This document shows positions 6,687 to 34,954 of a stretch of 64,000 bases of DNA, piece after piece; the stretch's first letter is position 1; the number at the start of each line of letters is the position of its first letter. The stretch is from Oceanobacillus oncorhynchi (GTDB taxonomy: Bacteria; Bacillota; Bacilli; Bacillales; Amphibacillaceae). Under the pieces are notes generated by a model. That model was not told where the DNA came from. It did not search any database and worked only from the letters and a program-made list of their open reading frames with translations. Position numbers and translations under genes: made by a program. Location: NCBI RefSeq assembly GCF_000821065.1, contig NZ_CDGG01000001.1, positions 2,728,001 to 2,792,000 on the forward strand. The letters run 5' to 3'.

Positions 6687-6806
6687 TGCGATGAGCTGAT
6701 TTGCGTAAGCCGAGAGACAACGTACGATATGCAGATGTGAACTGCATGTTCTTTCGCCGCAAATTTCGAAAAGAAAGGCATCCGTATCTCATACGGATGC
6801 CTTTCT
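6687..6806 (+). ncRNA. Candidate small RNA between rarA and the PAP2 gene
   Basis: An extended -10 promoter (TGC-TATACT, 6672-6680) with only a weak -35 region faces right in a gap that has no open frame on this strand. A transcript from about 6687 would be some 120 bases long. It would contain a hairpin (ATGCAG/CTGCAT, around 6728-6746), possible closing pairs (TTTGCG with CGCAAA), and end at the strong terminator at 6774-6804. I do not recognise the family; 6S RNA is one idea, but the length is short for it. Confidence 0.4.
6774..6804. terminator. Strong bidirectional terminator
   Basis: A 14-bp perfect inverted repeat (AAAGGCATCCGTAT at 6774-6787, complement at 6791-6804) has a 3-base loop. 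It can end the candidate small RNA on the plus strand and the PAP2 gene on the minus strand. Confidence 0.8.
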
Positions 6807-12893: not shown

Positions 12894-12974
12894 CCATGCA
12901 AACTTATGTTCGTAAATACAAAAAAGCAATTCACCTCCCATCTACTCATTGGGGTTCACCCTGCATATTCCAAC

Positions 12975-13021
12975 GTACAAATGTTTTCGATGGGACGAGT
13001 AATCGCAGTCCCAGGATGTAC
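12975..13021 (+). repeat. Hairpin repeat with GAGTAATCGC loop, copy 1
   Basis: Outer stem GTACA (12975-12979) pairs with TGTAC (13017-13021). Inner stem GGGAC (12992-12996) pairs with GTCCC (13008-13012). The loop is GAGTAATCGCA and AGG follows the inner stem. The other copies are at 13031-13087 (same strand) and 26852-26892 and 34722-34770 (opposite strand). Confidence 0.75.
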
Positions 13022-13030
13022 TAGTGCAGG

Positions 13031-13087
13031 CGTTGCAACAACTCTTTTCGATGGGGTGAGTAATCGCAACCCCAGGACGTTGCGACG
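13031..13087 (+). repeat. Hairpin repeat with GAGTAATCGC loop, copy 2
   Basis: Outer stem CGTTGCAAC (13031-13039) pairs with GTTGCGACG (13079-13087) with one G-T wobble. Inner stem GGGGT (13053-13057) pairs with ACCCC (13069-13073). The loop GAGTAATCGCA is identical to copy 1, while the last two base pairs of the inner stem have changed together. Confidence 0.75.
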
Positions 13088-13142
13088 TTAGCCTGCCTTG
13101 AGGTTGGGGATCCTCTCGTCTAATTATGATAGAACTGAGTAG

Positions 13143-26735: not shown

Positions 26736-26892
26736 CTTTCCATGGACCCCGAGATCATCTCCTTTAAAGAAGACTTGCCGACAGGCGCAGACAGAAGCAT
26801 AGTCGCACTTATGCCCCGAGGGTATAAAAAGAAGTACGCTTTTTTCTGCGGGGTCTTCCCCCTGGGATAGCGATTACTCGCCCATCAAAACC
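26736..26892 (-). repeat. Large intergenic repeat, copy A (with hairpin copy 3)
   Basis: The segment from CTTTCCATGG (26736) to the hairpin matches 34519-34770 closely: CCCCGAG, CATCTCCTTTAAAGAAG, CGACAGGCGCAGACAGAAG, TAGTCGCACTTATGCCC and GAAGTACGC blocks occur in the same order. Its end contains the GAGTAATCGC hairpin on the minus strand: outer stem GGTTTT/AAGACC with one wobble, inner GGG/CCC. No protein-coding signal was found. Confidence 0.75.
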
Positions 26893-26951
26893 GTCTCTAG
26901 AATTAGCTTCAATTTTTTGTAAGAAATCAAATGATACATATTTCTTCTTAG

Positions 26952-34518: not shown

Positions 34519-34770
34519 CTTTCCATGGGCCCCGAGCTCATCTCCTTTAAAGAAGACTTGCTGATTGGCAAGCCGACAGGCGCAGACAGAAGCATAGTCG
34601 CACTTATGCCCTGCGGGTGAAAAGAAGACTTGCTGATTGGCAAGCCGACAGGCGCAGACAGAAGCAAAGTCGCACTTATGCCCCGCGGGTAGAAAAAAAG
34701 AAGTACGCTTTTTTTCTGCGGGGTCTTCACCCTGGGACTGGGACTGCGATTACTCGCCCCGCCGAAGACC
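34519..34770 (-). repeat. Large intergenic repeat, copy B (with hairpin copy 4)
   Basis: The same ordered blocks as at 26736-26892 are present. A 72-base unit is tandemly duplicated (34552-34623 and 34624-34695, two to three differences). The distal end holds the hairpin on the minus strand: outer stem GGTCTTC (34770-34764) with GAAGACC (34728-34722), inner stem GGGGC with GTCCC including one wobble. GGAAATACAC at 34505-34514 and its complement at 34857-34866 may be the ends of the whole element. Confidence 0.75.
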
Positions 34771-34954
34771 ATGGCGCTTTCCCACGACGGACAGGACGTC
34801 CTAGTGTCGGTCGTTGGTCACAGGACGTGACCGTTCTTAGCCGACCAGGAGTCTCCGTGTATTTCCTCCGCTAGCTAGTTGCTTTTATCATATTTAATTA
34901 TATTTTCCAACCATAGATTTCGGTGTTGATCCTAACAAATGTATCTTTTTTCTT

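Follow-up and report, generated by a model that had tools for sequence, protein, structure and literature searches.

The window, a 64,000-nt stretch of the Oceanobacillus oncorhynchi contig NZ_CDGG01000001.1 (assembly GCF_000821065.1, positions 2,728,001-2,792,000), contains the loop GAGTAATCGC as an exact match at four places: 12997-13006 and 13058-13067 on the plus strand and 26870-26879 and 34746-34755 on the minus strand. A sequence-only reading had described four hairpins around these loops, and all four are present where it placed them. Copy 1 (12980-13013, plus strand; 60.4 bits with our covariance model) is a 34-nt unit of the GGGAC/GTCCC stem type that follows CGTACA, and copy 2 (13041-13074, plus strand; 56 bits) is a 34-nt unit of the GGGGT/ACCCC type that follows TTGCAACA. 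Copy 3 (26863-26894, minus strand; 35.8 bits) is shorter and diverged, at 32 nt, and lies in a TAGCG-type intergenic repeat. Copy 4 (34739-34772, minus strand; GGGGC/GTCCC type; 54.0 bits) lies in a recurrent intergenic repeat and is accompanied by an extra GTCCCA closer (34733-34738, minus strand), which may be the remnant of a nested insertion that was later shortened between direct repeats. Fifteen bases from copy 4 there is a Bacillaceae-1 RNA without an insertion (RF01690; 34788-34856, minus strand; 38.6 bits). The recurrent intergenic repeat (GAAGACCCCGCAGAAAAAAGCG...) that is found at 34600-34740 and 26780-26865 of the window is a frequent host of the 34-nt element. The window also holds a match to the BsrF small RNA (6688-6801, 62.4 bits).

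The two copies at 13 kb had been likened to a tandem aptamer. On the opposite strand, a Bacillaceae-1 RNA (13008-13107, minus strand) was found by cmscan at 29.6 bits (E 0.0008), under the gathering score of 35. This match spans the whole RF01690 model, and in the first loop, after CGUCC, it has 35 bases where the model has one; these bases are copy 2, which thus interrupts the first Bacillaceae-1 hairpin loop. The insert falls outside the model positions and is not itself a match to the model. The alignment stops at the 3′ end of copy 1, which the second hairpin abuts, and the model's second loop, AUCCUG, adjoins copy 1, so that copy 1 probably sits in the loop of the second hairpin. At another locus (L042), the first Bacillaceae-1 loop is interrupted likewise, in a host that scored 61.2 bits. 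The clearest empty site that we found is that of copy 2: L002 has GTTGCAACA^GGACGTTGC without the insert that the window carries there, and the two differ by a single 34-nt gap. Other copies have host contexts nearly identical to that of copy 1 (queries L028, +, 1993 and L002, +, 2014), and these contexts occur empty in L037. The supposed tandem pair is therefore best read as one Bacillaceae-1 element with insertions in both of its loops, and the spacing of the pair is simply the spacing of those loops. In three relatives (L206-L208), the interval from the lysR end to the tetR upstream region is 145-175 bases, compared to about 665 in the window, and lacks the loop motif, although this is not a clean orthologous test.

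Comparison of occupied and empty sites showed that the 34-nt element is precisely inserted, mostly after CA and less often after CG. Empty partners were sought in sequence near the copies and at a few other loci; in this material, 43 of 278 distinct contexts, in 18 target classes, had a partner that differed by one 32-36-nt gap holding the loop, and 235 were without a clean counterpart. A looser automatic empty-site list (98 of 300 queries) contains misaligned rows, and the stricter set was used throughout. The gap measured 34 nt in 22 cases, 35 nt in 14, 33 nt in five, and 36 nt in two. A placement in which the insert ends in CCCA was available for 36 of the 43 cases (13 target classes) and for none of the other seven. 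At CA targets, the placement of the insert carries a short shift ambiguity. Both ends are unambiguous at sites such as CCGCTGCG^GAAAAACAC, where the insert begins with A and ends with CCCA. When 33-, 34-, and 35-nt forms were allowed, CA was found at the left edge of 138 out of 167 distinct contexts (chance 0.185 for any of the three offsets), and at the 34-nt offset alone it was found in 70 (background 0.0625). Of the 29 contexts in which CA did not precede the element, 13 had GCG or ACG there and 16 had other bases. We did not observe a consistent target duplication across the insertion sites compared. A two-base duplication of CA was considered and is not general, since sites of the CTGCG^GAAAA type keep CCCCA at the right edge.

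The targets included Bacillaceae-1 hairpin loops, other intergenic repeats, the element's own loop (CGCA^GTCCC), which yields nests, and its own 3′ end (CCCA^), which yields head-to-tail arrays. When 16 typed target motifs were folded, the insertion point of the Bacillaceae-1 type fell within a hairpin loop, and the other types had no picture in common. Two targets hold more than one form of the element's 5′ arm: TTGCAACA^GGACGTTGCG holds both ACTC and AATG forms, and GTACA^GGACGTAC holds an AATG form in L002 and an ACGG form in L101, suggesting that the same target has been entered repeatedly. In L244 (G000:C1:2393763-2394225), the loop runs into a longer intergenic repeat and the closer is absent, so other repeats may enter the loop too.

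The copies carry no gene. Their consensus, 33-35 nt long and of the form 5′-ANNN...TGGGRYGAGTAATCGCARYCCCA-3′, makes one hairpin, whose loop is fixed and whose stem (TGGGRY/RYCCCA) is 5-6 bp long; the 5′ arm has the form ANNN-TTTYGR. The stem types include GGGAC/GTCCC, GGGGC/GCCCC, GGGGT/ACCCC, and AGACC/GGTCT. Compensating changes in the inner stem, which the earlier reading had reported from the window, were borne out in a table of 162 distinct 35-mers, from which 22 of an initial 184 had been dropped beforehand for want of a closer-like CCC or CTC. Against shuffles that do not keep relatedness, the table contained 71 doubly changed stem cells (shuffle mean 3.8, maximum 9), and 94.9% of the stem cells were paired (shuffle mean 90.8%, maximum 92.0%; slid controls 32-59%). 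The number of extra pair types in the same 162 sequences, eight, lay within the shuffles (mean 7.8, maximum 11). The loop is invariant in the four window copies, as claimed; because it was required for picking the rows of the wider table, its invariance there is not a result.

Selection on an RNA strand had been argued from the orientation of the G-U wobbles. The bias exists numerically, with 49 G-T vs. five A-C pairs in columns 16-30, and it disappears when the 23 distinct stem combinations are counted over the three variable pairs (10 G-U vs. 11 A-C). It is carried by one common stem type, which leaves the strand argument weak, and we regard selection on the GAGTAATCGC strand as weakly supported. 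A folded single strand of DNA would fit as well as an RNA. Folding energies were −8.1 to −9.3 kcal/mol as RNA and −4.3 to −5.2 kcal/mol as DNA, about equal for the two strands, and stability relative to shuffled sequences was modest (z −1.25 to −2.0).

The proposal that the outer stems differ completely yet always pair did not generalize, and at 13 kb the outer stem belongs to the host hairpin. Over 39 right-flank classes, pairing was no better than in permuted controls, whether between arm and flank (fraction 0.62) or between the two flanks (fraction 0.27), and we therefore rejected the idea that the element includes compensating outer stems. Guidance by base pairing between the 5′ arm and the target, while striking in one kind of target (GGTTTTCG/CGAAGACC), likewise did not rise above the permuted controls in the 39 classes and was set aside. 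The proposed comparison with Rfam gave no match of the element itself over the gathering score in the window or in the own-genome loci L001-L058; the matches that were obtained belong to host or neighbouring families.

We next turn to abundance. The pattern GAGTAATCGCNNNCCCAGN, in which the exact loop is followed by CCCAG, has 78 occurrences in the 4.61-Mb genome from which the window derives, 39 on each strand, vs. none of the reversed pattern. The covariance-model search that had been suggested was carried out with a model built from 20 copies and found at least 117 copies at E ≤ 0.001 in this genome, a figure that may be a lower bound since 150 of 1966 candidates were scored. Within the genus, the exact core TGGGNNGAGTAATCGCANNCCCA was present in 17 of 28 genomes, at 0 to 174 copies each. 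At E ≤ 1e-6, the model matched 66 of 159 genomes of the family and 29 of its 46 genera; scored candidates were limited in number for each genome, and the larger per-genome counts are lower bounds. In a class-wide sample, the exact core GGGNNGAGTAATCGCANNCCC was found in three of 398 genomes, all three among the seven members of the bacterial family to which the window's genome belongs, and in none of the 391 outside it. A scan of named genomes returned at least 104 stretches with the element, and the genera among the matches listed were Oceanobacillus, Amphibacillus, Sediminibacillus, Aquibacillus, Paraliobacillus, Gracilibacillus, Pseudogracilibacillus, Natronobacillus, Paucisalibacillus, and Virgibacillus.

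The copies avoid genes. None of 98 loops lay inside ORF proxies of at least 200 aa, compared to 6922 of 11800 random positions (59%) in the same loci; with a 150-aa limit, four of the 98 lay inside, compared to 66% of random positions. Carriage by phages or plasmids was rejected: viral contigs contained no exact match, and a BLAST search of phage and plasmid records with the 171 bases at 12940-13110 of the window gave no match.

Copies also occur within and next to one another. Two loops lie within 32 nt of each other in 15 of 89 own-genome chains, which have two CCCA closers in 11 cases, three in two, one in one, and none that we recognized in one. The inner unit of such a nest is a full 34-35-nt element located at the loop of the outer unit (CGCA^GTCCC). 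The other 74 chains have a single loop, and 14 of these have two closers and two have three; they may be nests that were shortened between direct repeats. The longest array, in Oceanobacillus sp. CFH 90083 (NZ_VIYG01000004.1; L105:2579-3273), consists of 21 nearly identical 33-nt units placed head to tail. One reading frame is open on each strand of this array. A three-unit array in O. sojae mixes subtypes. At one orthologous place compared between species, three clear units are present in G022 and two in each of G014 and G021, all three genomes having one decayed unit in addition; our own genome has one interrupted unit there, G026 diverged units, G010 decayed traces only, and G024 none. At a second orthologous place, upstream of a tetR-like gene, O. 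sojae has one unit and O. neutriphilus has two (L120, L139). These units belong to a subfamily with the stem AGACC/GGTCT.

We conclude, with a probability of roughly 0.85, that the GAGTAATCGC hairpins are copies of a non-autonomous mobile element of 33-35 nt. How such a unit would move can be proposed only tentatively, from its anatomy. One DNA strand would fold into the element hairpin, and a putative enzyme supplied in trans would recognize the loop, cut both the element (at its right end) and the target after CA, and join the two. The likeliest substrate would be single-stranded DNA, and each insertion would create two new CA targets. We consider this single-strand transfer route a possibility that falls short of even odds. 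A more specific version, in which a host-supplied activity that is neither a Y1/HUH enzyme nor a reverse transcriptase joins CA-ended single strands into hairpin loops by way of the GAGTAATCGC loop, so that nests and arrays grow by themselves, is somewhat more doubtful. Under it, RNA genes, Bacillaceae-1 among them, would be hit because their loops carry the target.

No linked mobilizing gene was apparent. ORFs found beside copies in more than three of the 58 own-genome loci were translated intergenic repeats and an ABC-transporter family, and no recurring transposase ORF was present near the copies in these loci. An unlikely candidate is a Y1 (HUH) transposase of the IS200/IS605 or RAYT kind, moving a REP-like element in trans on single-stranded DNA. 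The hairpin, the short target, the lack of a consistent target duplication, and the location of some targets in hairpin loops are all consistent with such an enzyme, and Y1_Tnp matches were found in 21 of 28 genus genomes and in 11 of 14 chosen copy-bearing family genomes, with the other three lacking one. However, copy-bearing genomes without a Y1_Tnp match number five (G026, G004, G109, which is a single contig, G125, and G105). G026 has 15 exact copies and no Y1 match, and G012 shows the reverse, with seven Y1 matches and no exact copy. In our own genome the best Y1 match has an internal stop and the other two are partial. None of the 14 Y1 loci that we examined, among the 60 genus matches listed, contained a copy of the element; the loop occurs in these loci once exactly (L088) and once with a mismatch (L060), both times in a context other than the element.

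We consider it improbable that the hairpin is instead copied through RNA, with a transcript inserted as cDNA by the reverse transcriptase of a group II intron or retron. RVT_1 matches occur in 20 of 28 genus genomes, and our own genome has 10. Six of these have equal scores in a 449-aa frame (G000:C1:51135, 621362, 3270884, 3370433, 4081630, and 4183154), suggesting the recent spread of one reverse transcriptase-bearing element, which we take to be group II intron-like. On the other hand, RVT_1 is absent from the copy-rich genomes G014 (75 exact copies) and G021 (51), both assemblies of about 50 contigs, from which it may have been lost in the past. Neither the Y1 transposase nor the reverse transcriptase tracks copy number, and we rejected both as required partners. 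As copies could persist long after their enzyme was lost, and as some of the assemblies (several) are drafts, these absences weaken rather than exclude the two enzymes.

It is very improbable that the hairpin is a mere passenger of larger repeats, with recombination and slippage producing its many copies. Many copies do lie in recurrent intergenic repeats, one translated repeat being common to 24 of the 58 own-genome loci; near-identical array units and TCCCAG repeats suggest slippage; and L103, L138, and L174 look like two-site recombinants. Against this, gains of the 33-35-nt unit alone were seen in 13 to 18 target classes, and different subtypes occur together in arrays. A structured regulatory RNA, aptamer, or protein-binding hairpin kept at many genes, although it would suit the covarying stem and the intergenic position, is the least credible reading and was rejected, being contradicted by the empty sites, by nested and tandem copies, by a range of 0 to 174 exact copies within one genus, and by insertion inside another RNA (Bacillaceae-1).

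What stands of the structured RNA proposed in the sequence-only reading is thus a hairpin with a covarying stem and no Rfam match; its 33-35-nt insertions, nests, and arrays speak for mobile DNA. A transposon end or a known Rfam family had been named as what would explain the hairpin otherwise, and a transposon-like origin is in substance what we found, although no known transposon matched. More generally, a covarying hairpin whose loop does not vary can prove to be mobile DNA, and an interruption in an Rfam match may mark an insertion. To our knowledge, few mobile units as small as about 34 nt have been described. In this family the ends are defined, the target has two bases, the loop is fixed, and single bacteria can carry more than 100 copies while some relatives carry none, which makes a genetic or biochemical search for the enzyme feasible.

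No description of the 34-nt element was found in searches of the non-subscription literature, and the family is apparently undescribed, although of a kind that is known but poorly understood. REP elements are linked to RAYT transposases. REP and REPIN elements (PMC3733652, PMC3116915) resemble ours as short, non-autonomous intergenic hairpins with many copies. They differ in the GTAG or CGTC tag named in the title of PMC3733652, which stands at neither end of the consensus of 162 units; CGTC occurs internally, as the opposite strand of GACG. The pairing of REP with RAYT differs further in that copies of our element are present in genomes without Y1_Tnp, where past loss is possible. IS200/IS605 derivatives have a transposase linked to them that shares their hairpin ends; none was found for the element in the 14 Y1 loci or the own-genome loci. 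Unlike MITEs of DDE transposons, which have terminal inverted repeats and a target-site duplication, it has an unpaired 5′ arm and no consistent duplication, and its ends are unambiguous at CTGCG^GAAAA sites. Bacillaceae-1 RNA (RF01690; a table entry in PMC2864571) shares multicopy hairpins and the same genome (31 matches in G000, 29 of them over the cut-off), a multiplicity that fits a repeat better than a single gene. It is a target rather than a relative, as the 34-nt element interrupts its loop.

Small mobile repeats of the SDR and GC-cluster kind are units of less than about 50 nt with fixed ends, as is the 34-nt element, which likewise has filled and empty sites at unrelated places (18 classes, 13 of them with the canonical right end). 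SDR5, of about 24 nt, was reportedly described with other very small mobile repeated elements of cyanobacteria by Elhai et al. in 2008, and we know of no enzyme for it. According to PMC4390886, its repeat module is inserted precisely between bases 3 and 4 of HIP1. The likeness lies in precise insertion within a short target; SDR5 belongs to another phylum, and our element targets CA, often in hairpin loops. GC42, a yeast mitochondrial GC cluster, is presented in PMC4478555 as a 42-nt palindrome with an AG target, cluster merging, and a mechanism discussed as open, so that in yeast mitochondria, too, the movement of such small units is an open question; tandem arrays are named in a title within the reference list of that paper. 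GC42 shares with our element a small palindromic unit and a two-base target and differs in being mitochondrial and having a putative target-site duplication, whereas ours is bacterial and without a consistent one. Cyanobacterial SDR5 and the yeast mitochondrial GC clusters are the closest known counterparts of the 34-nt element.
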